Source of the DNA: Cafeteria roenbergensis
Taxonomy: Eukaryota; Sar; Bigyra; Bicosoecida; Cafeteriaceae
Length of the DNA: 64,000 bases
NCBI GenBank assembly: GCA_008330645.1
Contig: VLTN01000040.1
Location: forward strand, 62,001-126,000
Direction of reading: 5' to 3'
The notes under the pieces are model-generated. The model saw nothing but the letters and a program-made list of their open reading frames with translations, made no database searches and was not told the DNA's origin. Of the stretch, positions 2,593 to 60,335 are shown one piece after another (positions within the stretch are counted from its first letter, which is position 1; every line of letters begins with the position of its first letter). The position numbers were made by a program, and so were the translations under genes.

Positions 2593-2768
2593 CAAGGCGG
2601 GCAGAGGCGGCGAAGGCCCTGAGCGCGCCTCCAGCGAGTGCGAGTCGGGGACACGCAGTTGGGGTTGTCGCCCCGCACGCGCTGGGCTCTGCCGCCGTCG
2701 TGGGCTCTGCCGGGCCAAGGGGGCAAAAGGGGGCACAGCCCCGCGGCGCCTCGGGCTGAGGGGTCGGG
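2593..2768. promoter_or_regulatory. Divergent promoter, ABCA / Misato
   Basis: The gap between the two start codons is 176 bp. It contains GGGCTCTGCCG twice (2684-2694 and 2702-2712), 18 bp apart. The same word recurs in other head-to-head gaps of this window. No TATA box is visible. Confidence 0.45.
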
Positions 2769-5469
2769 ATGGCAAGCAGGCGCGAGATCCTGACGTTCCA
2801 GTGCGGCCCCTTTTCCAATGGCATTGGCGCGCATTTCTGGAACTCCCAGGTGAGGCAGACCCCCATTCGCGGCCTGCAACCATAGTTTCCATGAACAGCT
2901 CCCGCTGTGGCGGCCGCGATTGGTCCAGGCACGCGGAGGCCAGCGCTACGCTCGTTCGGCTGCCTCCCGTCCATGCTCGCGTTGGTTGGGCCGGTCGGTC
3001 TTTCGCTGCGGCCGCGCTTCGCAGGACGAGCTGTGCGGGGGCGCCTTTGCCCACTCCGACGACGAGCCCTGGATCGACAACGGGCCCATGTACATGGAGA
3101 CAGCCAAGGTGAGCGCCTTGCGATGCACTTGACCGCCGCTGGCCGCCCCCGTTGCCCGGGCGGGCGGTGAGTAGTACAATGCGCGTGTACGACGAGCCGC
3201 AGCGCGCGTGCCGACCAAATGCAGCTTTCCAAGCCCGGGTGCACCTCGTCCGGCCGCGACGCAGGGGATGGTGCCGCGCGCCGTGTTCTTCGATTCCCGC
3301 GGCGCGATCGAGCTGCTGGGCTCAGTGACCCACCGCGGGCGCGGCGCGGCTGCCGGCGCTGAGGCGTTCGCGCCCACCAGCTCGAGAGCGGCGTGGGGCG
3401 GGCCAGTGGCCGTTTCCGCGCGCCCTGCGACGCGCCTTCACGACTACCAGCGGGACTTGCTTGACCAGGACGACCGCGCAGCAGCGGAGCAGGCGGCGAT
3501 GGAGGCTGCCTTTGCCGAGGCGGAGGCCAGCGCGGACGGTGGGGGCGGCGGAGCTGCCGCCGCCGCCGCCGCCGCCGCCAGCGCGGGCTGGGCCGGCCAC
3601 GGGGCAGGCTTTGCCTCGGCCCCCGAGCGCGAGGAGGCGCCCGAGCCGGAGGCAGACGACCGTGACTACGGGCTCGACGCCACTGCCCGCGGCTGGGGCG
3701 ACTGGTGCAAGGCCCCGCTTCACAGGCGCTCCACGGTGGAGCTCCGGGGAGCAGACGCCGGCGGCTTCGGGGGAAGCGCCGAGGTCGGGCTCGCCCTTGC
3801 GAGCGGAGGGGCGGGAGCAGAGTGGGAGGACGCCGAGGCGGTTGAGGACGCGATCCGGTGGCAGCTCGAGGCGGCGGACAGCCCGCAGGGCATGATCGTG
3901 CTTTGCGACGCCGACGGCGGCTGGGGCGGCGTGGGAGCCGCGGTGGCATCGTACCTCTCTGAGGAGTGCCCGGGCGCCGCGGTGCTCGCGATTCCTGTTC
4001 TGGGGCCCTGGCGGCACGGGGGCCCTGTCGGCGCGGCGGCGGCCGAAGCGGCGCGGTTGTCGGGAGCGACGGTCAGCGGGATGGCGGCCGCAGAGCACGC
4101 CTCCCAGGCCGCCGCGGCTCGTCGCTGCAACGTTGCGCTCACCTGGTCCCGACTTGCAGAGCGCTCCACGGCCGTGGCACCACTGAGCGTGCAGGCGTAT
4201 GTACAGGCCGCAGTCGCCGCCGGCGGGGCCGGGTCGCAGCTGTGCTGGCCCCACTGGCGGGCCGACCCTGCGTCGTCGTACCACGCCTCCGCCGCCCTGG
4301 GCCACGCGCTGGACCTCCTCACCACGCCGCTCCGCACGGCGGGGTCGCCCTCTGCGTCGCTGCGGGGCGCAAGCCTGGCCACTGTGCCGGGGCGCATGCG
4401 GCTGGGCGAGCTGTGCGCAGTGGCCGCCGGGTCGGCCGCCGGCGCGGGGACGTCAACGTACCTCTGCGCCGGCCTGACCTTGCCGTTGCCGGATCCCTTC
4501 AGCGACCCGGCGTCGCTCGCGGCCAGCGTGACCCCGATCGCCCCGGCGCCGCACGCGACAGCCGGCCCCTGGGCCCTCCCCCTGGTGTGGCCCGACCAGC
4601 CCGGGCGTGTTCTGGCCGACGGAGCGCGGGCCAGCGCGAGGGCGGCAGGCTCCCACGCCGGCGACGGAGCGGGAGGGGCGCCCTTGCCGGAGGGCTCGTC
4701 GCCTCCCGGCGAGGCGCAGTGGGCGGCGGCAGACGCCGCGCGGGCCGCGGCGGAGGCGGCGGGGGCGCCGCTGGGCCTCCTCCTCGTGTCTCGCGGGCAC
4801 AGGCCACCGCGCGGGGCTGCCGGGGAGGCCGCCGCGGCCGCGGCCGGGCATGCCGCTGCCGGGCTCAGCACCGGCGAGCGAGGCCGGGCAGTTGCCGCGC
4901 CTCCCTCGGTCGGCGACTGGGCCGACCGCTGGCTTGCCGAGTCGCGCTGCTCGTCGGCCCGGCACTGCCTCTGGTCCACCCCGCTGCCTGTGCCCATTCC
5001 GCACCCGCGGCGAGTGTTCGACGGCGACAGCTGGACGCTCGACGGGGCCGTCTCGGCGGAGTCGCGCCACGCATCCGAGCGGTTTCGCCGCTCGCTGCGG
5101 CCGTCGACCGCCGCTGCGACCGGCACCCGCGCGGCCCCGGGCGGCAAGGGCGGGGCCGCCGCCGCTGGATGGGAGCGGGGGTGGGACGTGCTGCGAGCGT
5201 CCGAGGCGTCGGCATCGGGGACGCGCGTGCAGCATGGTTCGGCCCCCGAGACCCTGGCCGCGATGCTGCGTCTCGGGGCCGGGGCAGAGGCCTCCCCCTC
5301 GCTTCGCTGGGCGGCCGCCAGCCTTGCCTCGCCAGACCGCCGCGTGATGCACAGGGTCCTCGGGGACGACAGCGCAAGCGCAGCGGGTGTTGGCGGCGGC
5401 GCACCCGACGACTGGCGGTCGCTCGCCGAGGCGCTGAGCGGCGCTGCTGACTCTCTGGGGGGCGAGTGA
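2769..5469 (+). CDS. Misato/DML1-like tubulin-related protein
   Basis: Homologue of Misato (DML1, MSTO1), a tubulin/FtsZ-related protein linked to mitochondrial distribution and morphology. Exons are 2769-2849, 3025-3108 and 3265-5469, all joined in phase 0, giving 789 residues. The N-terminus EILTFQCGPFSNGIGAHFWN is the classic Misato segment, equivalent to the first beta-alpha unit of tubulin. Exon 2 (DELCGGAFAHSDDEPW) and the start of exon 3 (VPRAVFFDSRGAIELLG) match the next conserved blocks, and a glycine-rich segment follows at about residue 265 (LCDADGGWGGVGAAVASYL). Ala-rich low-complexity stretches, for example at 3535-3590, enlarge the protein beyond the roughly 550-570 residues usual in animals. 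It shares a divergent promoter with the ABCA gene. I am confident of the family; function is inferred from the family. Confidence 0.85.
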
Positions 5470-5883
5470 CCGCCGCCAGGCCTGAGCGCTCGCGGCCTCG
5501 CGAGGAGCCGGCCTGATTGCTGCATTGTGCGTGCGTGACTGCCGACGGGAGACAGCCGACAGCGGGGCCGCTCGAGCGTACCGCGGGCCCAAGTTTCAAT
5601 GTGCACCTGGAGTGCCGCGCAGCTCAGGCGGCAGTGCCGCGTCTCCCCGCGGGTGCGGACCCCCCCCCCCTCCCGGCACTGCACAGTAGCTCACCAGCCC
5701 ACGCTGCTCGAGCGCTGAAGGCCGAAACGGTCGCAACAAGCTTGCTTCCGCTCCCACAAAACCTAAATTTGCTGACGGCAAGCGGCAGGCGGCAGGCCTC
5801 GGGCCGCGCTGGCGTCTTGCTGCGGCAATCGCGGCTCGGTTGGAGGGCGGCCCAGGGCCAGAACTAACGCCGAAGGAGGGGGG

Positions 5884-5970
5884 AGCCACACATGCACACT
5901 CGCACACACACACTCACACACGCACCAAAACAGACACACACAAAGACTCACTCACTCACTCACGCGCGCG
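5884..5970. repeat. CA-rich microsatellite-like tract
   Basis: An imperfect CA repeat runs into ACTC units (about 5944-5962). It lies 3' of the tetraspanin gene, for which the transcribed strand is TG-rich. Confidence 0.8.
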
Positions 5971-6003
5971 ACAAGGGACCAGCCTCTGCCGCCTTGTGGG
6001 GAG

Positions 6004-6033
6004 CAGGCCAGGCCAGGCCAGGCCAGGCCAGGG
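6004..6033. repeat. CAGGC pentamer repeat
   Basis: Five perfect copies of CAGGC are followed by a variant copy (CAGGG), just beyond the tetraspanin stop codon at 6056-6058. Confidence 0.85.
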
Positions 6034-7325: not shown

Positions 7326-7573
7326 CGCAGCCGAGCTTCGTCGCGGGGTCCTTCCCCGCCGCCCAGCGCGCTGGAAGGTGCGCGACTCCCGGGGGCAGCA
7401 GTCGCGCGCAAGCAGCGCGAGCCAGTCAGGCCGCCGCCGACGAGCAGTTCGGCCGAACTCTGCAGCGCAATCTATCGTCGCAGGTTGGCGCGGCTCTGCT
7501 CCGATTCCCGAGACTGCGAGCGTGCCCATCCCGCTCCCACCGGCGGGCCCGACTCCGAGGCGAGCCTGGACTG
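7326..7573. promoter_or_regulatory. Divergent promoter, tetraspanin / TM9SF
   Basis: A 248-bp gap between start codons. It holds CTCTGC at 7458-7463 and again within GCGGCTCTGCTCC at 7490-7502, 80 bp upstream of the TM9SF ATG. Confidence 0.4.
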
Positions 7574-9909
7574 ATGCGGTGCTGCCTTGTCGCCCTGGCC
7601 GCCCTGGCTGGGCTGGCGGGAGTCGCCGATGCCATCTACCTCCCAGGAGCCGTCGCGGAGCAGTTCCAGCAAGGCGCCGAGGTGAGCGGCTGGCGACGTT
7701 TCGCCGCCCCCTGTTGCCGGCCAGGCGCTGCTGCCGGAGGGCCGACCATGTGGCCCGCAGCGGTTGGGGGGCGGCCCGCCTGCGCCAGCTCCTCTCCGCG
7801 CCTGCCGAGGCGTGTGCGGAGAGCCTGCCCGCAGCCCAAGCCGGTGTTCGTCGCGCCACGCTTCCTCGCCCCGTCATGCGCAGGTGCCCCTCATGGTGAA
7901 CTCGCTGACCTCGACGGTGACGCAAATGTCGCTCAGGAACTACGACCTTCCCTTTTGCCGTGTAAGCCGGGCCCTGGCAGACTGGCCTCGGGCCCACGCC
8001 GTGCTTTGCTCAGCAACGGCGCCCCTTCGGTCGCCAGAGCCCCGAGCAGCCTCTGGGAACGGCTGGCTTGGCGCACGGCGGTGCGCCGAGCAGAACCGCT
8101 GCGTCTGTGTGTGCGCATCACCCTTCTCGCCCTGCTTTGTCCTTGCTTGGCCATGTGTGCGCGCGCGCGCAGCCTGCGACCATCACGGACGCCGCGGAGA
8201 ACCTCGGCATGCACTTGCAGGGCGAGCTGATCCAGAACTCGCCCTACAGGCTCAACATGAACGTGAACCGCACGTGCCAGCTCCTCTGCGACCCCATCAC
8301 GCTCACGGAGGCGCAGGCTGACGACCTGAGCCTGAAAGTGGAGCAGTTGTACACGCAGCACTGGATTGTGGACAACCTCCCCGCCGCCGCGCTCAGCATC
8401 GACAAGGTCGAGTACAGCCAGCTCGGCTTCCCCATCGGAGCCATCGCCCCGGACGGCTCGACGGTGATCTACAACCACGCCCGCATCGTGCTCTCCGTCC
8501 ACCAGGACCCGTCCTTCGAGGGTTTCCGCGTCGTCGGCTTCGAGGTGGAGCCCGTGACGGTGGCCCAGACCTGGGAGAAGGACCCCACGTCGGAGGAGGG
8601 CGAGCTGAAGCTGACCAACTGCCCCCTTGAGACCGGCTACCTGGCCAGCGACGCCGCCCCCATGTACGTGGCGGGCCCCATGTCGCGCAAGAAGGTGGAC
8701 CTGGCCTTCTCGTACGACACCTTCTTCGTGCAGTCCGACGTGCGCTGGGCGAGCCGCTGGGACATCTACCTCAGCATGGGCTCGTCCAGCATGGACAGCG
8801 TGCACTGGTTCAACATCCTCACGTCCTCCATCATCGCCGTGTTCCTGACCAGCATGGTCGGCCTCATCATGTGGCGTGCCATCCACCGCGACATCTCCCG
8901 CTACAACCGCGTGGCCACCGACGAGGAGAAGGCCGAGGACCGCGAAGAGTCCGGCTGGAAGCTGGTCCACACGGACGTGTTCCGCCCGCCCTCGACCGCG
9001 CCCCTGGCCTTTGCAGTCATGACCGGCGTCGGCGCCCAGGTGTCCTTCATGGCCATCGTCACCATCATCTTCTCCGCGCTGGGGTTCCTCAACCCCGCCA
9101 ACCGCGGCTCGCTCGTCATCGCCGCCATCGTGATCTTCTGCCTCCTCGGCTTCGTCGCCGGCTACGCCTCGGCCCGCAACCACAAGCTCTTCGACGGAAA
9201 GCTGTGGCAGCGCACCACCCTCCTCTCGGCGTTCGCCTTCCCGGGCTTCGTCGGAGGCGTCCTCCTCGTCATGAACTCCATCTCCTGGGCAGGCAACAGC
9301 ACCAACGCCGTGCCCTTCGGGTCCCTCGTCGCCGTCATCGCCCTCTGGCTGTGCATCTCGGTGCCCCTCACCTTCCTCGGCGCGTACTACGGCTTCAAGG
9401 CGGAGAAGCTCCCCCTTCCCACGCGCGTCGGCACCTACCCCCGCGTCATCCCCGCCCAGCCGTGGTTCCTCTCCCCGGCCTTCACCATGCTCGTTGGCGG
9501 CATCCTGCCCTTCGGCACCATCTTCATCGAGCTCTTCTTCATCCTCACCTCCATCTGGCTCGACCGCTACTACTACGTGTTCGGCTTCCTCCTCCTCGTT
9601 GCGCTCCTCCTGGCCATCACGTGCGCAGAGATTGCCATCGTCTTCGTCTACTTCCAGCTCTGCGCCGAGGACTACCGCTGGTGGTGGCGCAGCTGGCTCG
9701 TGCCGGGCGCATCCGCCATCTACGTGGCCCTGTACAGCGCCTTCTACTGCGCGACCCGCCTCCAGATTGCAGGCTTTGCGCCGATGATGCTCTACATCGG
9801 CTACACGCTCCTGGCCTCCGTGTCCTTCTTCCTCGTCACCGGGTGCATCGGCTACCTCGCCACCTTCACCTTCGTGTGGCGCATCTATGATGCCGTCAAG
9901 GTCGACTAG
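7574..9909 (+). CDS. Nonaspanin, TM9 superfamily (EMP70) protein
   Basis: Nine-transmembrane TM9SF/EMP70 protein of the Golgi-endosome system, involved in membrane protein sorting. Exons are 7574-7681, 7884-7961 and 8173-9909, all phase 0, 640 residues, normal for the family. Exon 1 encodes a signal peptide (MRCCLVALAALAGLAGVADA) and the start of the lumenal domain; exon 2 gives VPLMVNSLTS to YDLPFCR, the conserved YYxLPFC element; exon 3 continues with ENLGMHLQGELIQNSPY. Nine hydrophobic segments occupy about residues 275-635. The protein ends in KVD, matching the K-x-D/E terminal Golgi retention motif known for TM9SF proteins. The codon use is strongly GC3-biased like its neighbours. Confidence 0.95.
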
Positions 9910-12184: not shown

Positions 12185-12365
12185 TGACCTCGACAGCAAG
12201 CCCGGCGGAATTCGTGCCCTGGCAAGGCGGCAAATGCCTGAAAAGTGTCGCTTGCGCAATTGTGCGACATGGCTCTGCCGGCCGGCGTGGTGCAATTGCC
12301 AGCAACGAAACGCCCCCGCAGGCCACTTGCGCGCGCCGTTGCGCCGCAATTTTGCTGGCGCTGCA
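12185..12365. promoter_or_regulatory. Divergent promoter, RPA49 / MTFP1
   Basis: A 181-bp gap between start codons. TGGCTCTGCCGG lies near the middle (core 12273-12279), about 90 bp from each ATG. Several CAAT words (AATTGTGCG, GCAATTGCC, GCAATTTTG) are also present. Confidence 0.45.
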
Positions 12366-19176: not shown

Positions 19177-19386
19177 GCTGGCCAAGGACCGCAGCGAGGC
19201 GCAGTGGCCCCAGCTGGTTCAGGGGAGGTCAATATTCACCCTGGCGGGAGCATCGCGACTCTGCCGCTGGGCGTGCGCCGAACAAGGACATTGCGCTCGC
19301 CGAGGCGAACGACCCCCGCGCACCCCCGGCAAGCTTGGCCTGGAGGGGCGGAGGCACGGCAGTGGCCACTCTGTGAGCTTGCGGCC
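19177..19386. promoter_or_regulatory. Divergent promoter, importin alpha / small membrane protein
   Basis: A 210-bp gap between start codons with CTCTGCC at 19259-19265, 83 bp from the importin ATG. Confidence 0.4.
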
Positions 19387-23200: not shown

Positions 23201-23445
23201 ACCCCAAGAGACTGCCGCGCAAGGCTCCGGAAAGGCGCCAAGGACCGCGCCCGGGGGCGAGGGTTCGCGCAGTGGATGCGGGCGCGCACCACGAGCGCGT
23301 CCCCAGGGCCAGGGCGGGCCGAGGGGGGCCGCGAGCGGCGGCCGCGCGCGGATGACAGACCACTCGGGCGCGGGGGCGTCAGTCAGCGGGCCTGACGACT
23401 CACCTGAATGAAGGGGGCCACGGCCCCGGGCGGGACCGCTGACAT
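20213..23445 (-). CDS. Heat shock factor-type transcription factor
   Basis: DNA-binding regulator of the HSF family. Exons are 23445-23404, 23141-23059, 22891-22818 and 22599-20213, 861 residues; the junctions are phase 0, 2 and 1. Together they assemble an intact winged-helix HSF domain: APFIQ then KLRAIVDEG and VNWSADGTTFYVNDVD, then SFETEVLAKHFKSPHMASFV with RQLNFYGFRK, the diagnostic HSF block. A coiled coil with hydrophobic heptads follows at about residues 115-165 (NLRLSVASMRNQLATARKQL), as expected for trimerisation. The remaining 650 residues are Ser/Ala/Pro-rich and disordered-looking, a likely activation region. A GGCAGAG word at 23581-23587 (CTCTGCC on the gene strand) lies 136-142 bp upstream of the ATG. 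Confidence 0.92.
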
Positions 23446-23787
23446 GGCAAAAGGCTCGGAGGGGCTTGGTCGCAGCCTCGGAGGCTGTGACGGGGGCTCG
23501 GGTGCGTGGGGGACACGCGCTGAGAGGCGCGCAAGAGTGCTGGTGGCTCATTTCCGCCCTGTTCCGATGGACCGTCGGCGGGCAGAGCTTCGGAACACCC
23601 AAGGCCACGTACCCCGCGCTCGGCGGCGCGCCCGCGCGACCCCTGCGCCTTCTGGCGCACGGCGCGGCTACAAAACGGGCCAGTGTGTTCCGTGTGGCGG
23701 CCGGGCCGCGACGCAGAGCAGCCCAGCCGGCGCCGGGGCACGCACGCGTGGGCGCGCAAACATGTGCGTGGGCGAACGAGGGCCTCC
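23446..23787. other. Tandem gap between HSF and PLP enzyme
   Basis: HSF and the PLP enzyme are on the same strand, so this gap holds the HSF promoter and the 3' end of the enzyme. It includes GGCAGAG (23581-23587). On the minus strand, TG/T-containing sequence at about 23740-23765 lies just downstream of the enzyme stop. No gene seen. Confidence 0.45.
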
Positions 23788-25056: not shown

Positions 25057-25306
25057 GGAAAAGCCGGGAACGCGCTTGCCCCCCGCGAACAGCACTGCCC
25101 GGGACGCGCCGCTGGCCGCCCCTGCCGCCATTGCTGGCCGCCGGCGGTGGCTGTGCGCTGTGCCGGGCCTGGCGAGGAGTTCTCTCCCGCGCCAGTGGTG
25201 CCGCGGGGACTCCAGCCGGAATCGGGCAGAGCCAGTTTCAACTCCGAAAACAGCCGGCGCCCGGCCAGCGCGTGGGGTCTCGCGGGGCACCGCGTCGGCT
25301 GCAGGC
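25057..25306. promoter_or_regulatory. Divergent promoter, PLP enzyme / small protein
   Basis: A 250-bp gap between start codons with GGCAGAGCC at 25225-25233, the reverse complement of GGCTCTGCC. Confidence 0.4.
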
Positions 25307-29363: not shown

Positions 29364-29604
29364 TTCACCCACGGCGAGGTCTGAAAGCGAGCGCACGTGC
29401 CCGCTCGACCCCTCGAAGCTGGCCGGGCGCCCTGGCTCCGGGTCGGGGCCGCGGAGCCCGGGCTGGCGCGTGCGCGCGACTGGCAAGGCGACCGACTCTG
29501 CTCGAGTCGATTATTTGGCTTTTTGCCCAGAATCGCAAGAGTGCTGCTGAAAATATGCCTCGCCCCACACCCTCAGCGGGTCGCCGGTGCCCACCCCGCG
29601 CAGC
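29364..29604. promoter_or_regulatory. Divergent promoter, secreted protein / CSN5
   Basis: A 241-bp gap between start codons. CTCTGC at 29496-29501 sits inside a short inverted repeat (CGACTC and GAGTCG, 29493-29498 and 29504-29509). An AT-richer patch (TTATTTGGCTTTTTG) follows at about 29510-29524. Confidence 0.4.
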
Positions 29605-33565: not shown

Positions 33566-33713
33566 GTCTGGGGGTCGTCGCCCAGGCTGTGGCGGCCGTG
33601 CGAGGGAAGCATTCGGGCAGCGCGCAGCTCTGCCACCAGCCTTGCAGCAGCGTTCCCGCGCCCTCGCGGGCACAGGTCGCACGGCCTGCCCCGAGGGCAG
33701 CGGAGAGGCTGCC
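33566..33713. promoter_or_regulatory. Divergent promoter, SDR / CAMLG-like gene
   Basis: The shortest divergent gap, 148 bp. AGCTCTGCCA at 33626-33635 lies 63 bp from the SDR ATG and about 80 bp from the other. Confidence 0.4.
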
Positions 33714-39675: not shown

Positions 39676-39974
39676 CCGTTGACGGCCGCGCGGACCGGTT
39701 GGGGCCTTTGCGCCGCCGTCGTGCAAATGGCGGCCTTGCCAGGTGACTCGAGAGTCGGCTTTGAAGCAGTCTCTCCCGGCACGGACATCGTCGTATTTGC
39801 AGCAACTGCACAGCAGAGTCCTCGGAACTGCCCGGCTCTGCCGGCCTCATGAAGGTCGCGGCGAGATGCAGCTCACGCACTTGATCGCGCATTCCGGCAA
39901 GCAGCACTCTGACTGGAGCCCGGCCCGGCCTTGCCATCTCGCCCCCAACCCACGACCTGGAGTCGCACGGCGCA
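39676..39974. promoter_or_regulatory. Divergent promoter, NIPA-PDZ / Prune
   Basis: A 299-bp gap between start codons with CGGCTCTGCCGG at 39833-39844. Confidence 0.45.
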
Positions 39975-46996: not shown

Positions 46997-49726
46997 TCAC
47001 CCGAACAGGGGCCTGCGGCGCAGCTCGTCGGCGCGCATGCGCATCTCGTTTCCTGCGCTGGTGAGCATCCCGGAGTTCTCCTCCGCGCGCCTGACCAGGT
47101 ACGGCATGACGTCCTTGATCGGGCCGTAGGGAACGTACTTGTAGACGGCGTAGCCGGCGTGGCCGAGGGAGAGGGACACGTGGTCGCACATGCCCAGCAG
47201 CTGCCCGAAGGCCACGCCGCCGTTGCCTCGCTCGATGCCCAGCTGCTCCATGCGATCCACCACGCCGCGGACGCTGCGCTCGTTGTGCGTGGCCACCATG
47301 ACCTCGGCGCCGCTGCCGCTCTTGATCTCGTTCAGGATGGTCTTCCAGGCCCGGTTGTACGAGGCGTGGGTGGCGGCGAGCGTCGGCTGGATGGGGTCTC
47401 TGTATCCGAGCTCCTTGGCTCGCTTCCGCTCCTGCACCATGTACGCGCCGCGGACGAGCTTAGCCCCGAACTTGAAGTTGCGGCGGCGGGATCGCTCCAG
47501 GTCCAGAGCGATGCGAGGCCCCGCGTCTCGCAGGTAGGCTTGGTAGGTGTTGTACACCACCGCGCGCTCTGTGTTGAACTCCACCTGCGCGCGCGTCACG
47601 ACGTGGTCGATGGCCGACTGGAGGTACGTCTGCTCGGCGTCGAACATGATGGTGACGCCCTTCTCGCGCGCCGCGTCGCTGAGGGCGCGCGCCCGGTCCA
47701 GCATGCGGTTGAGCCGGCGCATCTCGTCCTGGTCGAGCTTGTGCGCGTCGCCGTCCGGGTTGATAGGCGACTGCGTCATGAGGGGCTGCGAGGCCAGGCG
47801 CTGCGTGGACATGAAGTCCACCCACTCGAGCATGTCGATGCTGCCCGAGCCGTCCGCGTCGATTTCGTGGAAGAGCTCCTCGGCCCCGGACCGGCCAAAG
47901 TTTACGCCGGACGAGTTGATGGCCTCAACAAACTCCTCCAGGTTGACGCACAGCCGGGGGCCCTTGCCCGTGCCCGGGGCCAGCGGGATCTGCTGCCCCT
48001 CCGCCGCTGCGGCGGCCACCTCCGCGGCTCCGACGAGCAGATCCATCTGACCGGGGGCGTGCTCCATCTCCCCCAGGGCGTACTGTTCCAGGTCGTTGCT
48101 CACGGCGTCGGAGCGCAGCGCCGCCACCACGGCCTCCCTCGCCTCCTCGTTGTCCACGAGGCCGCCCGCCAGCGCCGAGATTTCCACTTCGCTGTCCTCG
48201 TCCGAGTCGTCGGAGCTGCCCTGGCCCTCTGGCCCGATGTGAGAGGTGTCCTCGCCGAGGAACTGCCGGAGGAACAGGGAGCGGTTTTCGCTCATGGCCT
48301 GGCTAATGTGCTGCAGCAGCTCCGGCTTGCCGATGGAGGTCACCTTGACGGCGGCGAAGCCGGGGAGGCCGGTGACCTTGGAAAGCTGCGCCGCGGTGTC
48401 GATGGACCGGAGCGTCACCTCGAGGTTGAAGTCGCACTGCTCCTCGCCCTGGTAGTCGTAGGTTCGCACCTGGATCTGGTCGCGCGACACGCCGAGGTGG
48501 CGCTGGGCCTTCTCCTCGATTTCGTCCTCGGCAGCGTAGTCGAGAATCGAGCCGACGCCGTCCTTCTGCAGGCGCTGCAGAACCGGCTGGATCTCCTCGG
48601 CAGACCGCCCAGCGCAAAAGTGCCCGAAGAACGTCGCCTGCGCGCAGGGCGTGCGTGGCGGTGGAAGCGGGACGGGGGAATTGGCAAGTGCAAGGCGCAA
48701 GGACACGCGTCAGAGCGCGCAAAAGCCAGCGCAGGCTGGTGTCGCAAGGACGCAGCTCCTCGATGACGGACCCCGGGCCAGGCGTCGCGTGCGCGCCTTT
48801 CTGGCGGGCGGAGGCGTCCCGGCTGGTGTGCGGGAAAGGGCGCGCACGCTTCGGCGGTCGCGCGAGCCCGGCAAGCCTGTCGCAGAGACGGAACAAGCGC
48901 GGACGGGGTTGCGACTGACCCGGAACACTGGCGCCCCAGCTGGCGCTGCAGGCAAAGTGCCGGGGCGGCTGAACGCGCGGGCCGGGCGCGCTGATGGAGG
49001 CGAAGGCACAAGAGAGCCCGCCGCGGCACGGCTATCCGCTCGCCCGGGCTGACGTGGGCGCGGGGTTGCCGCGTGGCCCGCCATCGGACTTCGGAGCGGA
49101 TTTCTCTGGGACTCACCTGCAGAACGGCATCTGTGATGGTGTCCCCGAACACCTTGCGGCTGAGCGTGATGAGCTTGCGCGCGTTCTGCACCAGGAAGTC
49201 CACCTGGCTGACGCGGAACACCAGGATGGCGCGGAGCAGCTCCCACCGCGTTGCCCCCTGCGATCCGTGCGCGGGACTCGACCGGCGCGGGCGCGAAATC
49301 AGTTGAAATTCGCCCAACGGCACGCGATTTCCCGCGCCCATGGGGGCTCGCCGCCCGACGCGTGCAGGCCCTGCGACCCATCAAGCAGCGACACCGCGAC
49401 TGGCGGGCGGGGCGCGCCCGGGGCGTCCCTCCGCGGCTCTGTGAGGTTGGGGGAGACGGCCGCGCGAGTCGCCACGAGTTGCAAACACCACAGGTGCCGC
49501 TCACCCCATACACAGCCTTAACGTCGTCGAACTGCAGCTTGCTGTCCGGAGGGGCCACTGTCTTCTCGTCCATGGGAGGCGTGCTGCTGGCGGCCCGGGC
49601 CCATGCCGCCGAGGGGCCGCAACGCGGCTCCGGCATGTGGACTGCCAGGGTCGCTGGCCGCCTGGCCAAGGATCGCGCGCCGCGGACCGCGGAGTGAGCC
49701 GCCCGGGAGGCGGAGCGAGCCAGCAT
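46997..49726 (-). CDS. Proline dehydrogenase with EF-hand and acidic insertion
   Basis: FAD-dependent mitochondrial enzyme oxidising proline to pyrroline-5-carboxylate. Exons are 49726-49505, 49257-49117 and 48637-46997, all phase 0, 667 residues. The N-terminus is Arg/Ala/Ser-rich (MLARSASRAAHSAVRGARSL), a likely transit peptide. The PRODH blocks are LQFDDVKAVYG, RWELLRAILVFRVSQVDFLV, ATFFGHFCAG, VTIMFDAEQTYLQSAIDHV, FGAKLVRGAYMVQER, EVMVATHNERSV and FGQLLGMCDHVSLSLG, covering the barrel and FAD-binding residues. Between the helical region and the barrel lies an insertion with an acidic stretch and a canonical EF-hand loop (DADGSGSIDMLE). Metazoan PRODH enzymes can have related calcium-binding insertions, so calcium control is plausible. 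Divergent from the kinase. Confidence 0.92.
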
Positions 49727-49887
49727 GGCTCAGTGCGCTCGGGTTGCGGCGGGGGCCTCGGTGAAGGCGCTCTCGCGGGAGTGCGGCGCGGACGTGGCGC
49801 CGCGCTGGCGGCGGGGCACCGCAGAGCGGACCGTCTCTGCCAGCAGCTCAGCCGACTGACCTTTTTGCGGCCCGGCCACTCGCCGCC
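49727..49887. promoter_or_regulatory. Divergent promoter, PRODH / kinase
   Basis: A 161-bp gap between start codons. GTCTCTGCCAG has its core at 49835-49841, 53 bp upstream of the kinase ATG. CGCAGAGCG at 49820-49828 is a weaker reverse copy. Confidence 0.4.
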
Positions 49888-51631: not shown

Positions 51632-51892
51632 GCTTTCGTGCGGCGGCCGCCCAAAGAGCAGCGCGCGCCTGGCCGGCGTCGCGTGACATCGCCCCTGTTT
51701 GCTTCTCGAGGTTAGCATGGCAGATGCATGTCTGCTCGCTCCCGCGCAGCTGGCGAGGGGGGAGCTTTCTTGCATGCTTGGGAGTTCGGCTCGAACTGCT
51801 CTGCCACTGTGTTTGTGCGCCCAATCACGTTGATTTGCCGTGCCGGCGCGAGCGATGCACACGTCGGGGCCAGGCAACCGGGAGAGCGCGCA

Positions 51893-53170
51893 ATGTCGAC
51901 CGAACAGCTGCTGATGCAGCTCGCGCAGACCAGCGGCGGGGTAGTGCCTCTGCTGCGGTCCTTTTTCGGCTTCCTGCAGACTAGAACCGATTTCTACATT
52001 GTTGACCCCAGCCCCAAGCGGCGCGTCGGGTTCGCCCAGGGCGACGCAGAGAGGCTGCTGCTGCGGGCATTCCGTTCCTTTCCTCTCAAGGACCCCGCGG
52101 GACGGCCAGTCGCCCACGCGCCGGTTGCCGACACTCTGGCGAGGCTGGACGAGCGCGCCGCCGCGCCCTCGCGGCCGAAGAGAGCCCCGAAGCCAGCCCA
52201 CGATCGAGAAAGGCCAAGCCCGGATGCGGTGCCTGCTTCGACCGCTCCGGCGACGACGGGGGCAGCGGGGCCAGAGGGCGACGCCGCTTCGGCGGCCCGT
52301 GCCACTGAAGCTGCCGCCGCTGCCGCCGCAACGACGACTGCTGCTGCCGCTGCCGTGGATCCGGCGGACGGGGCTACTGCCGCGCCAAGCTCGTTCGGCG
52401 TGCCGGCCTCGTCCCCGCGCCGCACGCCCGAGGGGAGGCAACTGCCCGTGGGGAACGGCGGGCAGAGCCGCTTCTTCTCGTGGACCCAGACGCTGGCCGA
52501 CCTGACGGTGACGCTCCCGCTGCCAGGGTGGGTGCGGCGAGACGACTTGCGCGTCGACATCGCAGACACGAGCGTTGCGGTTGAGCTGGTGGGCGCGGCA
52601 GCGGACAGAGCCCGGGCAGAGCTGGGCCGGGCACGAGGTCCCGCCGGCGGCTCCGACGGGGCACCGCTTCCGCTGCTCAGGGGGCCCCTCGAGTTTGCCG
52701 TGCGATCAGCTGACTGCGTCTGGTCACTTGAGCGGCCCGGCTCCGTCGGCGTCGGCGCCGGCGCCGGCGCTGGTGTCGCGGCAGGGTCAACTCTGGAGCT
52801 GGTGCTGGATAAGCGGGTCGAGACGTGGTGGGAGCGCGTGGTCACCGGTCCCGAGTCCTCTGCTGACGACGTGATTGACACGACGCGGATCGACTCGACT
52901 CGACGGGTGGACGAGTTTGACCCGGAGACGCAGGCTGCGATTCGCAAGCTGGTGCATGAGCAACGGCACGGCGGGGCAGGCGTGGGCGCAGGCGGGACGC
53001 ACGGCGGGGCAGGCGGGGGCGCAGGCGGGCCGCAGGGAGCGGCTGGAGGGGGCGCAGGCGGGACGCAGGGAGCGGCTGGAGGGGGCGTGCGCCAGGAGGG
53101 GGGCGCTGATGCTGCGGTGATGGAGGCGGCGCTGCGGGAGGCGGCGGCGCAGGCGGGCTCGCCTCTCTGA
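51893..53170 (+). CDS. NudC domain protein, NUDCD3-like
   Basis: A single exon encodes 425 residues. The N-terminal block SFFGFLQTRTDFYIVD is the NudC N-terminal element; a disordered Ala/Pro linker follows. The CS (p23-like) domain begins FSWTQTLADLTVTLPLPG and contains DLRVDIADTSVAVEL, then ADCVWSLE and WWERVVTG, the conserved order of NudC CS domains. The segment EFDPETQAAIRKLVHEQRH matches the NUDCD3 region after the CS domain (DLDSETRSMVEKMMYDQRQ in animals). The family are HSP90 co-chaperones that help dynein intermediate chain and other WD-repeat proteins fold. The last 60 residues are a Gly/Ala repeat. GCTCTGCC at 51798-51805 lies about 90 bp upstream. Confidence 0.88.
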   Translation: MSTEQLLMQLAQTSGGVVPLLRSFFGFLQTRTDFYIVDPSPKRRVGFAQGDAERLLLRAFRSFPLKDPAGRPVAHAPVADTLARLDERAAAPSRPKRAPKPAHDRERPSPDAVPASTAPATTGAAGPEGDAASAARATEAAAAAAATTTAAAAAVDPADGATAAPSSFGVPASSPRRTPEGRQLPVGNGGQSRFFSWTQTLADLTVTLPLPGWVRRDDLRVDIADTSVAVELVGAAADRARAELGRARGPAGGSDGAPLPLLRGPLEFAVRSADCVWSLERPGSVGVGAGAGAGVAAGSTLELVLDKRVETWWERVVTGPESSADDVIDTTRIDSTRRVDEFDPETQAAIRKLVHEQRHGGAGVGAGGTHGGAGGGAGGPQGAAGGGAGGTQGAAGGGVRQEGGADAAVMEAALREAAAQAGSPL

Positions 53171-53581
53171 GGCGCGCACGGTGGGGAGGTGTGGGGGGGG
53201 CGGGGCGGCGGCGCGGAAGTGGAGCGCAGGGGCGGCGGAGAGGGGGGCGTCGGTGCGTAAGGAGGTCGGCTGTGAGCGCATGGATTGCGAAGGCTTTGGG
53301 GCTGTGCGGCTCGCTCGCGTTGCAGCCCGCGCGTGGCGCCCCAGCCCTCCGGCCTTGAGTGACGCGGCGCAGTGTTCCGGGAGGGGGGCGGCGGCGCCGG
53401 ACACTGCCTCGACGACGGCACGTGCACGCCTTCAAGCGCGCAGACACCATGCGCACGCAGACACACAAGAACACACAACCGCACTCTCTGCACCAGCGCG
53501 AGGCAGCCCCCCCCCCCCCCCTCCGGTAACGGAGGGGGGGGCTGCTGTTGTTGCCGGTGCGGGGGCCGCAGCGCGGCCTGC
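53171..53581. other. Convergent 3' region with strong hairpin
   Basis: Lies between NUDCD3-like and F-box stops. It includes a CA-rich tract (about 53445-53480), TG-rich on the F-box strand, and a GC-rich hairpin at 53503-53545. No gene is seen. Confidence 0.5.
53503..53545. terminator. GC hairpin with GTAA loop between convergent genes
   Basis: The left arm is GCAG, a run of 15 C, then TCCG; the loop is GTAA (53526-53529); the right arm is CGGA, eight G, then CTGC. Seven C are left unpaired. In RNA read from the plus strand the loop is a GNRA-type tetraloop closed by C-G. A role in ending or pausing converging transcription is inferred. Confidence 0.4.
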
Positions 53582-54101: not shown

Positions 54102-54303
54102 GGCAGAGAGCACCAGCTAGGAGCAGCGCGTTGGTCCTCCGGCTCTGGTCGGCCGCCTGAGGCGCCGCTGCCCCCGAGCGGTGGCGAACACATGTCCAGG
54201 AGCCATTGCTCGCGCGCGGCAATATATTCGCTCGCGCTCTGCGCGATTGTAACCGACCGGAATGCGCCGTCGGGGACGCAGGGCCGCGAGCCACACGGGC
54301 AAC
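54102..54303. promoter_or_regulatory. Divergent promoter, F-box / DRC2
   Basis: A 202-bp gap between start codons. CGCTCTGCGCG has its core at 54237-54242, 67 bp upstream of the DRC2 ATG. GGCAATATATTCG at about 54218-54230 is a rare AT-rich, TATA-like word in this genome. GGCTCTGGTCGG is a weaker copy near 54141. Confidence 0.4.
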
Positions 54304-56586
54304 ATGGCGCTTCTGAGCAAGGTGCTCAAGGGCACGGCCACCCTTGACGAGAGCGGAAAGCGCGCCGGGGGCGGCGCAGCTGGCCAAGGAGCGGGCGACG
54401 CGGCGGAGCGCGCAAAGCTGGAGGAGCTCGCTCGCGCCGACCTGAAGCGCCGACTGGCTGCAGCCACGCGGAAGCAGCTCAAGGTGCGCCACGCTTGCAA
54501 CCTGGTTCGGGCAGGCGGCGACTGTGGTCCGAGTTTGCGCGCTGTGCGCGGTTCGCCGAGCGCGAGAGCGACTCGAGAGTGTGTTCTGTCCGCCACCGCG
54601 TCCCCGCGACTCTCCCGTCGGGTACCCGCGTGCGCAGGACAAGCTGGACCGCGAGAAGGAGGTAGCGCGCATCAACAAGTCCAAGGTGCGCTGCTGGCGT
54701 CCCCGCTCCTCACCCCCGACGCCATTCTTGCCTTGCGAGGCGTTGCGCTGCGGCGCGCCCGCCGGCTGCCCCTGTGCCCCCACCGCGGCAGCAGGGGCCC
54801 TCTCGAGGCGCCATGCACCATGATTCACGCCCAGCGCCTCCCACCCGACGCCTCGTTCGGCTCGCGCAGGTGGAGAGCGCCTGGCTCAAGATTTTGCGGC
54901 TGGCGAAAATCGACGGGCTGCGCCGCGACGCGGAGGTGCTTGCCCAGAGCCACGAGCGCGAGGTCGACAGGCGGGACGCGCTCCTCCAGCTTCTGGACGC
55001 GGACCTGGACGGGGCGGAGGAGCAGTTCCAGCAGGCCGTGCGAGACCACCTGCGCGCCGTGGACAGGCTGGTGGACATCCAGGATGGCAGGCTGCGCGAC
55101 CTGGAGCGGAGTTTCCGCGCGGAGCTGACGGCGACGGAGGAGGAGTTCGGCAGCGAGCGGCGCGAGCTGGAGGAGGCCCACGCCGAGGAGATGGCCCTGG
55201 TCAAGTCTGTGCTGGTGACGGTGCGGGAGCGGGAACAGGCGAGGGCGGACAGAGCACGAGCGGCCCGCGACCAGCGGCGGGAGGAGGTTCGCAACGAGGC
55301 GTCCGACCGCATGGAGGAGCTGGCGCGCACCATGAACGACCGCGTCAGGCTGCTTGAGCGCGAGTTTGAGTCGGCGCACGTCGAGTGAGTCTTGCCAAGG
55401 CCGCGCCCCCGCCGGCGCCTGCCGCTGCCGCAAGCGTGCGGGTGTGCTCGCATCGCCCCTCTCCCCCCCTCCGGCCACGCTGCCCTCCCTGGCCCCATCC
55501 CGACCCACTGCCCCGCCCCGACACGTCCTTCCCGCCAACCGCACCCCCCGCAGCTACCTGGAGCGCACGGACACCACGGCGGAGAAGTTCAAGCAGATGA
55601 CCGCCAAGGACCAGCAGACCATGCGCGCCATCCGCGACTTCGTGGCCAGGGAGCAGCGCCTGCAATCCCAGCTCACCGCCACGCGGGCAAAGCTTGTGTC
55701 CGCGGCCAGGGACTTTGGCGAAAGGAACGCGTCGCTCTCCCGCGAGCGGGCCAGCATGGCAGCCCACGTCGCGGCGCTGAAGCGGCGCATGGCGGCCTCT
55801 CACAAGCGGTGGGAGGCACGGCTCACCGGCCTGGCCCTCGCAGCGGGGGAGTGCAAGACGGAACTTGCGGCGCGGACGGAGCTGGCCGAGCGGGTGCTCA
55901 AGCTGGCGGAGCGGTGCAGGGAGCTCGAAACGCCCGAGGAGAAGGTCACTCCCTTCTTCGCGGCGTCAGACGACGACCCAGTGACCGGCGCGCCGTCGGG
56001 CGCCGCCGCAGCGGGGCTGGTCCCGGTGCGCGACGGGCCGGGGATGGAGGACCCGACTGGCCTGCGCCCCGGCGCCGCCGGGCCAAGCAGGGCAGCGGGG
56101 GACCGCGACGCCGGCGAAACCGCCCGGGCAGGCGCAGCAAGCGTCGCAGGGGACGGGGAGGAGGAGGACGGCGCCCCGGCGGGAAGTCCTCGCGCGGGCG
56201 GGTTCGCGTCGCTGGTGACGCCGTCGTGGGCGGCCAGCGCCGCAGAGGTGGTCGGGTCGGGCGAGCTGGAGTCGCTGGAGCTGTTCTTCCGGCGGCAGAA
56301 CAAGGCCCTGGTTGAGAAGGTGGCCCTGGAGGCTGAGAGGGAGCGCCTCCGGCTGGAGAACGAGACGCTGGCCAACACGCTGCGTTCCATGCTCGAGGGC
56401 ATCTCGCTTCCAGAGGGGGCGCTCGGGGAGGCAAACCCGCTGCTGGTGGTGAACGGGCGGTCTGGGGTGACCGCCGCAGCTGCGGCCGCGGCTGCCGGGC
56501 GCTCGGGAGGCCCGACCATCATCGAGGCGGTGGACGTTGCCCGGACGACAACGAAGGCGCGCGCCGTGGGCCCCCGCCGCGGGTGA
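54304..56586 (+). CDS. Dynein regulatory complex subunit 2 (DRC2/CCDC65/FAP250)
   Basis: Coiled-coil subunit of the nexin-dynein regulatory complex of motile cilia. Exons are 54304-54483, 54638-54685, 54870-55384 and 55554-56586, 591 residues. The joins give EVARINKSKVESAWLKILRL, then AQSHEREVDRRDALLQLLDA and DHLRAVDRLVDIQDGRLRDL, which follow the animal DRC2 pattern (sequential IDRKDA, HLQSVDRL and GRLEALE elements). After the last splice, DYLERTDTTAEKFKQM continues the second half of the coiled coil. The C-terminal 200 residues are Ala-rich and disordered. The first two introns begin GTGCGC instead of the usual GTGAG. This gene is the best evidence that the organism has a motile flagellum. 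It is divergent from the F-box gene. Confidence 0.85.
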
Positions 56587-57043: not shown

Positions 57044-60034
57044 TCAGGGTGCGTCTCGCGGCCTCTTGCCCGGAGCAGTGCCCTGCCTTGCCTTGGCGGC
57101 AGCAATGGCGGCCTTGGCAGCCGCGGCAAGCCCCTTTCCCAGCGAGCCCGCGCCCCGCTTCAGCAGCCTCCTGCGGAGCTCCTCCGCCTGCTCGCGCTTC
57201 TTCCGGGCGACGTCGCGCGCGCTCACTGAGACGGTGTCCGCCGCAACAACAACCGTCCGCTTCGCCGGCGCCGCGCCAGAGCTGGAAGAGCTGCTCGACG
57301 ACTGCGAGCTGGCCTGATGCTTTGGCAGGCGGTCCTCCAGACGGGGCCTGGGGATGGCCGCAGCAGCCACGCGGGCTGACACGTACGCGGTGTTGTCGGC
57401 GCCAAACCAGTCTTGCAAGGGCTCCCCCCAGCCCCCCGCGCCATCACCAACTGGGTCAGCAGAGCCGCTTCCCCCGCAGGCCTCGAGCATCTCCGCTCCC
57501 GCCTCCTGCTCAACGGCGCCAGATTTGATGCTGGTGCCGCTGCTGCCAGTGCTCGTGCCAGAGACGGAGGCGGCCTGGCCTGCCGCTGCCGCAGCCGCAG
57601 CCGCTGACGACGACGACGACGACGACGAGGTCGAGGTCGCCCCGCGCGAGGCCGCTGCCTCCTCCTCCGCACGCTGCGCCGCCTCCAGGGCCTGCCTGGC
57701 GCCGGGGGCGCCCATCTCCGCGGCGATGGCCGCGTGGGGCATGAACTTCAGCGCGATCTCGCGAATCATCAGCTGCATGTAGTCCAGCTGGCCCTCCCGG
57801 GAGATGAGGCGGTGGTACAGCCGCTTCGAGTTGAGGGTGATCTGCTCGCAGGCGGCGTCGTGCTGCTTGCACCAGGTGATGACCTCTGCGAGGTCAGAGA
57901 GGTCCGCCGCCACGACGATGTGGTCAGCGTCGCCGACGTCGTCCCCCTTGGACCGGTCGTGCGGCTTGAGGAGCGGGAAGTACCACATGTGGTCGGCCTT
58001 TGTGACGGATGCGACGAGGAGGATGACGGAGCCGAGGGGCATCATGGAGGCGTACCGCATAGCGGCGCAGTGGCCGTCCACGTACAGCTGGTACTTGTAC
58101 TCGGCCTGCTTGTACATGGGAACGCGGTCCACGAGGCCGATGGGGAGGGAGTCCGGCTTGATGTAGGTCATGGCGCCGCCCTGCAGCTTGCGGTCGCGGA
58201 GGTTCCAGCCGACGACGCCGCCGTCGAGGAACGGAACGCCGTCCACCGGGTTCTTCTCGTTGTAGCGAGGGTCCCGGCTCCACTTGGCGCTGAGGAGGGC
58301 AACGGCAAGGCGCTGGTTGGTGGCGGGGGTGGTGCCCGGCCCGGTGCTGTTTCCCCTGAAGATGGCGGTCGCGCGGCGTTCCGCCCAGGCGACTTCGTGG
58401 CGCTTGCGGTTTCGCAGCGAGCGGAGGTCGGTTCCCACCGGGGGGAAGACCACACCGGTGGCCGTTTCCCAGTCGTCCGTGGTGACGAGGGGGAGGTCCG
58501 CGAACTCGTGGCTGAGGAAGAAGGAGCAGATGGGGGCCAGGGAGGCCCACGCCTCCCTGTCCAGGGGCACGCCGTCCCTGCTGAAGAGGAAGTCGTACGG
58601 CTCGGACTGGTCCTTCTTGAGGTGCGGGAAGTCGCGCTTGTTGATGAAGAACTCGCAGTCGGAGACGGTGCGCTCGTCGCACGTGCGCTCCAGCATGTGG
58701 CGCAGCTGGGTGAGGTAGGAGTCGCCCCAGAAGTTGCGGGACTCGACGTTGCACATGATGTTGCCGTTCGCCCACCACCGGCGCCGGTCTTGGATGGGCC
58801 TCTCGCGCAGGCGCGTGCGCTGCCGCTTTGCGCGGTAGTACTCGTCCACGGTGAGGTTCCCCTCCAGCTCTAGCGTCTCGCCCCAGTTGTTTGTGTAGTC
58901 CTTGTTGACAAAGGGGACGAACATGGCCACGCGGCCGCGCCGCAGGGCCACGAAGATGCCGCAGCGCATGTGGAAGAAGAGGTAGCGAAGCGTGTTGACG
59001 GTGGACTCGTCGGTGGGGGCCTCGTGCACGGGGAGGCGCAGCCTGGAGCGCAGGCCCACCAGCATCGCCTTGGACCCGGCGAAGCGGCTCGAGGCCGGGA
59101 GCGGCGCGGGCGGCCGCGCCGGCGATGTCCGGCGCAACCGCCCCAGCGGCTTGAGGATGAGGTCGCATGCCTGCTCCCAATCGCACACGGTGGTGTAAAT
59201 TTGGTCGCAGTGCTTGTACTTGGGGTTGGTTCGCCTGCGCTGCAGCGAGTACCACTCCCCGCAGGCCGTCTTGGTCTCGAATGTCTGGACCTGGCGGAAC
59301 TCCTCGTCCTCCTCGTCCGAGGCCGCGTAGATGCCTCGGAGCTTGCCCTCGTCGGGGTGTGGGCCTTCGCGCTTGGTCAGCTTCAGCCGGATGCGAGTGG
59401 CCGGCGGAGGGGGCTTCTCCTCGTCGGGATCCGCCTCTTTGGGCGCCGCGGGTCCGCCAGCCCCCTCCGCCGCGGAGTCCGCTGCCGCCGCTGCGGCTGC
59501 TGGCGCTGATTCCGAAGCCGCCCCCGGGGTCCCGGCCTGACCGGGCACAGACGCGGCGGCAGCAGTGCCAGCGGCAGCAGCAGCGGCGGTAGCTGCCGCT
59601 GCCGCTGCCACTGCACTGGCCGTGCCAGAGGCGTCAGCAGCTCCGGCGGAGGCCGCGGGCGCCTGCCCCGAGGCCGCCGCAGCTGCGGCCGCCTGCTGCT
59701 GGGCCTGCTGCGCGGCCACAAAGGCGAGGAAGCTTTCCTCCGTGTCGAAGACCAGCGTCGGCTTGCCGTTGCTGAGCGAGATGCGCACGCCTGGCGCGAC
59801 CGGGATGTCGACAAGGGGCGTCACAGACGGCACTGCAATCCGAGTGCTGGCGGTCGGGCTGGGCGCCGGGCCCCCCGGCTGCTGCTGGGCGCCAGCAGCG
59901 GCCTGCTGCCCCAGGGCCGGGACCATGATCGACGGCGTAGCTGCCGGCGCGGCGGTGCCCACGGCTGGGGGCTGCGGCGGCCCGGGCGGCGCGATTTTCG
60001 GGGACGAGGCAGGCTCAGGCGCTTGCGGGTCCAT
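57044..60034 (-). CDS. GT90/CAP10-like glycosyltransferase of the giant-virus/protist type
   Basis: A single exon encodes 996 residues from the ATG at 60034. The middle (about residues 300-730) resembles CAP10/GT90-like proteins known from large DNA viruses and protists: TLRYLFFHMRCGIFVALRRG, VPFVNKDYTNNWG, WWANGNIMCNVESRNFWGDS, LRHMLERTCDERTVSDCEFF and INKRDFPHLKKDQSEPYDFL. It continues with FRGNSTGPGTTPATNQRLAV and then YKYQLYVDGHCAAMRYASMM, the block that binds the sugar nucleotide in GT90 enzymes. The N-terminal 250 residues are Ala/Pro-rich without a signal peptide or membrane anchor, and the C-terminal tail is low-complexity with a basic end (DVARKKREQAEELRRRLLKR). A cytosolic or nuclear location is therefore implied. 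Base composition matches the host genes around it, and it shares a divergent promoter with a spliced ribosomal protein gene, so it is treated as a resident host gene. Confidence 0.75.
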   Translation of the reverse strand: MDPQAPEPASSPKIAPPGPPQPPAVGTAAPAATPSIMVPALGQQAAAGAQQQPGGPAPSPTASTRIAVPSVTPLVDIPVAPGVRISLSNGKPTLVFDTEESFLAFVAAQQAQQQAAAAAAASGQAPAASAGAADASGTASAVAAAAAATAAAAAAGTAAAASVPGQAGTPGAASESAPAAAAAAADSAAEGAGGPAAPKEADPDEEKPPPPATRIRLKLTKREGPHPDEGKLRGIYAASDEEDEEFRQVQTFETKTACGEWYSLQRRRTNPKYKHCDQIYTTVCDWEQACDLILKPLGRLRRTSPARPPAPLPASSRFAGSKAMLVGLRSRLRLPVHEAPTDESTVNTLRYLFFHMRCGIFVALRRGRVAMFVPFVNKDYTNNWGETLELEGNLTVDEYYRAKRQRTRLRERPIQDRRRWWANGNIMCNVESRNFWGDSYLTQLRHMLERTCDERTVSDCEFFINKRDFPHLKKDQSEPYDFLFSRDGVPLDREAWASLAPICSFFLSHEFADLPLVTTDDWETATGVVFPPVGTDLRSLRNRKRHEVAWAERRATAIFRGNSTGPGTTPATNQRLAVALLSAKWSRDPRYNEKNPVDGVPFLDGGVVGWNLRDRKLQGGAMTYIKPDSLPIGLVDRVPMYKQAEYKYQLYVDGHCAAMRYASMMPLGSVILLVASVTKADHMWYFPLLKPHDRSKGDDVGDADHIVVAADLSDLAEVITWCKQHDAACEQITLNSKRLYHRLISREGQLDYMQLMIREIALKFMPHAAIAAEMGAPGARQALEAAQRAEEEAAASRGATSTSSSSSSSSAAAAAAAAGQAASVSGTSTGSSGTSIKSGAVEQEAGAEMLEACGGSGSADPVGDGAGGWGEPLQDWFGADNTAYVSARVAAAAIPRPRLEDRLPKHQASSQSSSSSSSSGAAPAKRTVVVAADTVSVSARDVARKKREQAEELRRRLLKRGAGSLGKGLAAAAKAAIAAAKARQGTAPGKRPRDAP

Positions 60035-60335
60035 CCCTGCCCGCTCCGGGGGCTCCTGCCCTGACGGCTGCACGCAGGCGCGCGACTCGGGGTTCGGCCT
60101 GGCGCGCGAGCGGGCCGGAGCGACGACTCTGAGGGGTGTTCCTTATGCCGCAACTGGCTGCCCGCCTCTGCTCTGGCACCGCCGCCGCCGCGGCTCTGCC
60201 GCCTGCTTGACGATTGAGCGACAACCCGCTTCGGCCCGGCCTTCCGCACTCGCGTGCCCCGAGGGAAGGCGACCGGTCTTCGGCTGCCCGCCCCCCGCGT
60301 GCCGCGCTCTCCGGGCTTGCTCCTGCTCCTCTGCC
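60035..60335. promoter_or_regulatory. Divergent promoter, GT90-like / uS5m
   Basis: A 301-bp gap between start codons. GCGGCTCTGCCGC has its core at 60194-60200, with further CTCTGC at 60166-60171. An open frame on the minus strand across the gap and uS5m introns shows no domain. Confidence 0.4.

Follow-up and report, generated by a model that had tools for sequence, protein, structure and literature searches.

The window and its genes

The short DNA word considered here, which reads GCAGAGC on one strand and GCTCTGC on the other, is a real and widely used promoter element in the genome of Cafeteria roenbergensis. It was noticed in a stretch of 64,000 nt (contig VLTN01000040.1, C40, positions 62001-126000; ~71.5% G+C), which will be called the window and in which positions are counted from the first letter. 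Two more stretches, C2:200001-300000 and C4:700001-800000 (200 kb), were analyzed together with the window, giving a total of 264 kb, and the genome-wide counts were made on 36,303,456 bases in 167 contigs (~71% G+C). Strain BVI of C. roenbergensis is named C. burkhardae in later papers.

The gene models come from a hidden Markov gene finder that includes splice sites and trains itself; its training set was the window together with the C2 and C4 stretches, and it was given no knowledge of the promoter word. They comprise 169 introns and 101 predicted genes and gene pieces; an excerpt of PMC6972860 gives 1.67-1.89 introns per gene across strains. The modelled introns are highly uniform, with the donor GTGAG (0.85 G, 0.75 A and 0.86 G at positions 3-5) and the acceptor CGCAG. 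Twelve of the 20 large window exons scanned gave a Pfam match at 1e-5, the tetraspanin one lying below the curated cut-off, and the families found include ABC transporter, EMP70, RNA polymerase I A49, proline dehydrogenase, MAD, protein kinase, GT90 and NIPA.

From the 101 predictions 92 starts were kept, four being dropped for having fewer than 200 coding bases and five for being cut by the ends of a stretch. One modelled open reading frame of the window, 49635-49859, is spurious, its translation containing an in-frame stop. Its start was kept among the 92, and the sets of divergent gaps (33) and tandem gaps (27) therefore each hold one artefact gap (61 and 28 bp, both empty).

A seven-base word in promoter gaps

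The exact core, on either strand, is present in 28 of the 33 divergent gaps and in 16 of the 27 tandem gaps, against a single one of the 34 convergent gaps, which corresponds to 2.57, 1.37 and 0.09 cores per kb, respectively (Fisher P = 1e-12 for divergent and 8e-7 for tandem, each compared to convergent). The control for composition consisted of 1000 dinucleotide shuffles of the gaps. For the divergent gaps of the window, taken as modelled, CTCTGC was found in 10 of 11 (shuffle mean 3.52, maximum 8) and CTCTGCC in 8 of 11 (mean 1.27, maximum 5). The 22 divergent gaps of C2 and C4 gave 20 with GCTCTGC (mean 5.18, maximum 11), 14 with CTCTGCC (mean 3.43, maximum 10) and 11 with the eight-base word GCTCTGCC (mean 1.67, maximum 7). 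The first-pass annotation, which had picked out GCTCTGCC as a candidate promoter word, named enrichment over such shuffles as a check, and the enrichment is present both in the window and in the two other stretches.

A second control used the 210 words that can be made from the same letters. Core sites number 43 in the 200 bp upstream of starts, where the mean for these words is 5.1 and the runner-up has 18. The core is unremarkable in introns (19 sites, same-letter mean 12.3) and after stop codons (3 sites, mean 3.2). It is above the mean in coding sequence, with 150 sites in 187 kb against 61, and in either sense the coding sites come to roughly double what codon shuffles give on average (76 vs 33.8 and 75 vs 36.0). 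It should be noted that the window overstates the enrichment of CTCTGCC relative to C2 and C4: counted on the strand of the gene over the 300 bp that precede starts, its density per kb is 1.92 in the window, 0.81 in C2 and 0.78 in C4, with whole-stretch backgrounds of 0.41, 0.52 and 0.30 per strand-kb.

De novo motif discovery on upstream regions, the other check that had been named, recovers the word from C2 and C4 without the window. Among eight-base words GCAGAGCC came first, in 19 of 43 promoter regions vs 2.83 in shuffles; with seven bases CAGAGCC (21 vs 5.20) and GCAGAGC (27 vs 8.54) were on top, and with six bases a rare A/T word present in four regions was first by z-score. Rare A/T words of this kind (AAATAT, AATATT and CAATATT) rank high by z in the k-mer lists, yet they occur in only 3-7 regions. 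AATATT and CAATATT are over-represented upstream, in 7 of the 92 regions each when the window, C2 and C4 are taken together, and are perhaps a second, minor promoter class.

The best definition of the element is the seven-base core GCAGAGC/GCTCTGC with weak outer G/C, the aligned sites having the core with a mild preference for G before it and C after it. The earlier GCTCTGCC is this core plus one flank; as a promoter word it is real, but it reaches only 17 of the 33 divergent gaps where the core reaches 28. The variant GCAGAGT looks likewise promoter-linked, its sites numbering 9 in the 10.2 kb between -160 and -45 vs 3 in 18.9 kb elsewhere upstream. An expectation-maximization matrix was started from the core and fitted to the very promoter regions in which it was then scored; its site fraction reached the upper cap, so that only its contrast with the convergent gaps is informative: at 9 bits it matches 29 of 33 divergent and 18 of 27 tandem gaps, and 4 of 34 convergent ones. 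When a site common to two divergent genes is counted for both, the exact core lies at -200 to -25 of 49 of the 92 starts. Exact matches alone thus place the word at about half of the starts, and weaker ones, if admitted, would add to these, which is less than the presence in nearly all intergenic promoters that had been claimed for it.

Position, arrangement and avoidance

Within the 264 kb there are 54 cores in divergent and tandem gaps. Measured from the ATG, and with a shared site entered for each of its two genes, the density of cores is 2.0 per kb at -200 to -150, 4.1 at -150 to -100 and 5.8 at -100 to -50; it is 0.66 at -50 to 0 and 0.18 at 0 to +500. Of the 43 cores which lie at most 220 bp from a start and were aligned, 36 are at 60-150 bp (median 92, interquartile range 76-136); the first-pass annotation had put the distances mostly at 50-145 bp. 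No companion word at a fixed offset rose above the shifted null when 3-, 4- and 5-base words were searched from -100 to +100 of these 43 sites. A/T is mildly up, 0.34-0.38 vs 0.30, at 10-30 bp from the aligned sites on the side of the nearest ATG.

A genome-wide test which does not use the gene models was made by counting the word upstream of GCCATGGC. GCTCTGC was found 125 times at 5-35 bp, 216 times at 60-90 bp, 179 times at 95-125 bp and 116 times at 260-290 bp before GCCATGGC, i.e., it is 1.9-fold commoner at 60-90 bp than at 260-290 bp (P = 4e-8). Since GCCATGGC is its own complement the strand of the start is unresolved there, which dilutes the peak and does not create it. The opposite orientation, GCAGAGC, was found 218 times at 60-90 bp, as against the 216 of GCTCTGC (P = 0.96).

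The divergent gaps most often contain one core (23 of the 33), with two cores in four gaps, three in one and none in five; one of these five is the modelling artefact, and the true gap has a core at 49821. In short gaps the single core is central, the distances to the two starts being, e.g., 90/91, 97/78, 64/84, 68/81 and 95/66 bp, and in long gaps it is usually close to one start. This arrangement suggests that in short gaps one site may serve both divergent genes. Past the core and the outer G/C the sites have little flanking sequence in common, and repeat copies can thus be discounted.

From left to right in the window, the divergent gap 2494-2768 has two plus-strand cores, 2686..2692 and 2704..2710. 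The core at 7493..7499 (plus) precedes the start of the TM9SF/EMP70 gene by 78 bp. The nearest relatives of this TM9SF protein (8173-9906) have 60-66% identity among the best 120 of 4208 matches and come from jgi and lgn sources, on contigs which among the matches listed reach 117 kb; the DNA of these relatives would permit a conservation test of the promoter word. The plus-strand core at 12272..12278 is in the middle of a 181-bp divergent gap (12185-12365), 90 and 91 bp from the two starts, and the gene on its left is RNA polymerase I A49-like. The gap 19177-19386, also divergent, has a one-base variant, ACTCTGC, at 19258..19264 (plus). A minus-strand core (GCAGAGC on the plus strand) at 23582..23588 lies 140 bp upstream of the start of the gene 20213-23445 on the minus strand. 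The first-pass annotation called this gene HSF, and by eye its predicted N-terminus led us to the same name; its large exon was scanned with no Pfam match. Another minus-strand core, 25226..25232, again GCAGAGC on the plus strand, lies in a 175-bp divergent gap at 97 and 78 bp from the starts.

In the divergent gap 29364-29604 there is no exact core, only the six-base CTCTGC at 29496..29501 (plus). The plus-strand core 33627..33633 is placed 64 and 84 bp from the starts of a 148-bp divergent gap (33566-33713), and that at 39835..39841 (plus) is 137 bp before the start of a DHHA2-domain gene. The divergent gap 49574-49887, which has the proline dehydrogenase gene and the protein kinase gene as its neighbours, carries a minus-strand core at 49821..49827 (GCAGAGC on the plus strand) and a one-base variant, TCTCTGC, at 49834..49840 (plus), so that an exact core and a variant stand about 13 bp apart in opposite orientations. 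A tandem gap has a plus-strand core at 51798..51804, 113 bp before the start of the gene 51914-53260. The gene 54304-56586 has one at 54236..54242 (plus), 65 bp before its start, and CTCTGCC is found in reverse (GGCAGAG on the plus strand) at 54102..54108 (minus). The last core of the series, 60193..60199 (plus), is found 140 bp upstream of the right-hand start of the divergent gap 59927-60335.

All 11 positions listed in the first-pass annotation (2687, 2705, 12273, 19259, 25225 reverse, 33628, 39836, 49835, 60194, 23581 reverse and 51799) carry CTCTGCC or its complement. It had CTCTGC in all eleven divergent gaps of the window; the gene models give 10 of 11, the exception (49574-49634) being an artefact, and with the spurious reading frame removed the gap 49574-49887 has sites at 49821 and 49835, so the count of 11 of 11 stands. 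CTCTGCC, which it placed in eight of these gaps, is found in nine of the eleven, the reverse copy at 54102 having been overlooked.

Cores are scarce just downstream of the starts. The first 500 bp of the 92 genes have 8 cores vs 22.9 expected from an order-2 model (Poisson P = 3e-4), and the near-to-far ratio of the core in genes is the lowest among the 210 same-letter words. The convergent gaps have 1 core vs a shuffle average of 5, and 2.8% of the shuffles give 1 or fewer. Further inside the genes the counts exceed the expectation: 27 vs 20 between 500 and 1000 bp, and 128 vs 70 beyond 1 kb, or 90 vs 57 when the two richest genes are taken out. Two long genes predicted in the C2 stretch have 23 copies of the core (model starting at offset 58044) and 15 copies (offset 13496), which may reflect internal protein repeats. 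The avoidance near starts fits with a word that is active close to the promoter; the interior excess is not accounted for.

Interpretation and comparison with known promoter elements

The reading we prefer, with a probability of roughly 0.7, is that the word is a proximal promoter site, tolerant of orientation, for a putative and widely used sequence-specific DNA-binding protein. Such a protein would bind the core GCAGAGC/GCTCTGC at a large share of the promoters and would open or mark them, as the general regulatory factors do in yeast or NRF1 in animals. RNA polymerase II could then start nearby, on one or both sides, and in the short divergent gaps one site might serve both genes.

A number of observations weigh against this reading. 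Exact cores at -200 to -25 are missing from 43 of the 92 starts, and upstream of the peak, at -550 to -200, the density is still 0.9-1.7 per kb, exceeding that just inside genes. Within the 264 kb, 169 of the 224 core sites fall inside genes, and the genome has 36,699 copies of the core (reversed control 9,312), while 8,483 proteins are reported for strain BVI in the excerpted text of PMC6972860; the word alone is thus insufficient to make a promoter. In the genome-wide test only 8 of 66 GCCATGGC occurrences are modelled starts, and the counts before GCCATGGC are diluted accordingly; moreover, GCAGAGC was counted there at 60-90 bp only, without a control at the far distance. When the whole genome was searched for a core with GCCATGGC on either side at 55-85 bp, 1 match turned up, about chance by our estimate, and the case for shared use therefore comes from the 264 kb. 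Finally, there is a suggestive local lean to one orientation. Toward the nearest ATG, GCTCTGC leads by 26 to 17 (P = 0.22); in genes whose upstream neighbour is tandem or unknown, it is on the gene strand 9 to 2 at -200 to -25 (two-sided binomial P = 0.065), and at -150 to -1, where shared sites count once per orientation, 29 to 17.

This local lean keeps alive the idea of the first-pass annotation that the word could be a core promoter or initiator element, that is, a directional signal at or beside the transcription start. The tight placement before the ATG would agree with it, as would the gene-strand excess of GCTCTGC in the three local counts. At variance with it are the equal orientations at 60-90 bp before GCCATGGC, the P-value of the 26 to 17 split, the failure of any companion to appear at a fixed offset, and a spread of about 90 bp in the distance to the ATG. 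With no orientation bias genome-wide at the one distance tested, and a local bias that is only suggestive, the counts do not support the initiator reading. We consider it unlikely, and of the earlier proposal the promoter-linked element is supported and the directional initiator is not. A signal at the level of RNA, either a motif in the 5' untranslated region or a splice acceptor (GCAG|AGC) of introns in that region or of trans-splicing, would also be expected just before the ATG, and GCAG resembles the modelled acceptor CGCAG. This requires one orientation, however, and genome-wide both are equal at the distance tested, with the acceptor-like orientation being the rarer one locally; the splice or trans-splice acceptor was rejected on these orientation counts, and RNA-level readings as a whole seem to us very improbable.

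A role in chromatin, i.e., nucleosome exclusion, insulation or choice of replication origins rather than recruitment of the transcription machinery, would account for the presence in promoter gaps, often in one copy each, as general regulatory factors would too. Origin or insulator roles would not predict the near-absence from convergent gaps (1 of 34); for the rest this idea overlaps with the best explanation, and sequence cannot separate the two. We regard it as quite improbable. The word might also be a mere by-product of base composition, of codon usage or of some dispersed repeat, considering that it is over-represented within genes as well and that the genome is ~71% G+C. The dinucleotide shuffles, the same-letter words, the convergent gaps and the scarcity over the first 500 bp of genes speak against this, and the flanks are unrelated; the chance we allow it is next to nil. 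A coding artefact was rejected on a promoter density 3.5 times the coding density and on convergent gaps that are almost empty, and repeat copies were ruled out by the unrelated flanks.

A bolder form of the proximal-site reading can be formulated. It postulates that in this bicosoecid one word, specific to the lineage and free in orientation, is the main thing that defines promoters; read by a putative general regulatory factor, it would replace TATA, initiator and CCAAT signals, and selection would purge strays from convergent gaps and from the 500 bp at the beginning of genes, where they would misplace transcription starts. We put this forward tentatively, as possible and on the doubtful side of even. 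What is of interest is the word itself, its reach and the fact that it seems to be avoided just downstream. A promoter motif could here be detected from about a quarter megabase of raw sequence without RNA data. A promoter word this common is a handle for fishing out its putative binding protein and useful for building expression vectors, and it helps to ask how host and viral transcription stay separate.

The initiator consensus is YYANWYY, and its matches at -150 to -1 of the 92 genes are at expectation (27 vs 27.7). The remark that no TATA box takes the place of the word agrees with TATAWA being found in 0 of 92 promoters (-150 to -1), where the chance expectation is also 0.0. The CCAAT box, bound by NF-Y, is a proximal and orientation-tolerant promoter word, and the Cafeteria word is like it in both respects; CCAAT and ATTGG themselves are not enriched at -150 to -1 of the 92 genes (6 and 6 vs 5.3 and 5.5 expected). 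General regulatory factors are represented by Reb1, Abf1 and Rap1 in yeast and NRF1 in animals. Their sites, like the word described here, are short, occur at many promoters in either orientation and at a limited distance from the start, and are frequent in divergent gaps. Of these properties the Cafeteria word has the occurrence at many promoters yet not at gene ends, the limited position, and independence of orientation at one distance range, with the local lean unsettled. It is unlike them in being a different word and in being known from sequence alone; the NRF1-like core, GCATGCGC, is not enriched in these promoters (0 vs 1.5 expected).

Bicosoecids, to which Cafeteria belongs, branch apart from the well-studied stramenopiles. 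Titles and abstract starts in open-licence PubMed Central gave no promoter-context report for GGCAGAGC, GCAGAGCC, GCTCTGCC, GGCTCTGC, GGCAGAGCC, GCAGAGC, GCTCTGC, CAGAGCC or CTCTGCC, and among the matches listed in the open-licence literature no description of host promoter elements in Cafeteria was found. Putative virophage promoter motifs have been predicted in the Cafeteria host, according to an excerpt of PMC8547959, and an excerpt of PMC10945749 mentions the late promoter motif of CroV in those elements and is silent on the promoters of host genes. Sub-words of the motif were not found in the main text of three Phytophthora promoter papers. A TCATTYY-like oomycete INR word before the Cafeteria starts gave 2 matches vs 0.8 expected. 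For Phytophthora infestans, an excerpt of PMC3599244 gives forward-orientation ratios of 5.9, 2.9, 1.8 and 1.8 for the core elements INR, FPR and DPEP, states that element matches peak at 50-100 nt from the start codon, and considers motifs without orientation bias to be proximal elements. The Cafeteria word is like INR, FPR and DPEP in being a stramenopile promoter word near the start codon, and unlike them in having no forward bias genome-wide at the distance tested and in its sequence (PMC3599244). Within the literature searched the element is new for this lineage, and its kind is a familiar one.

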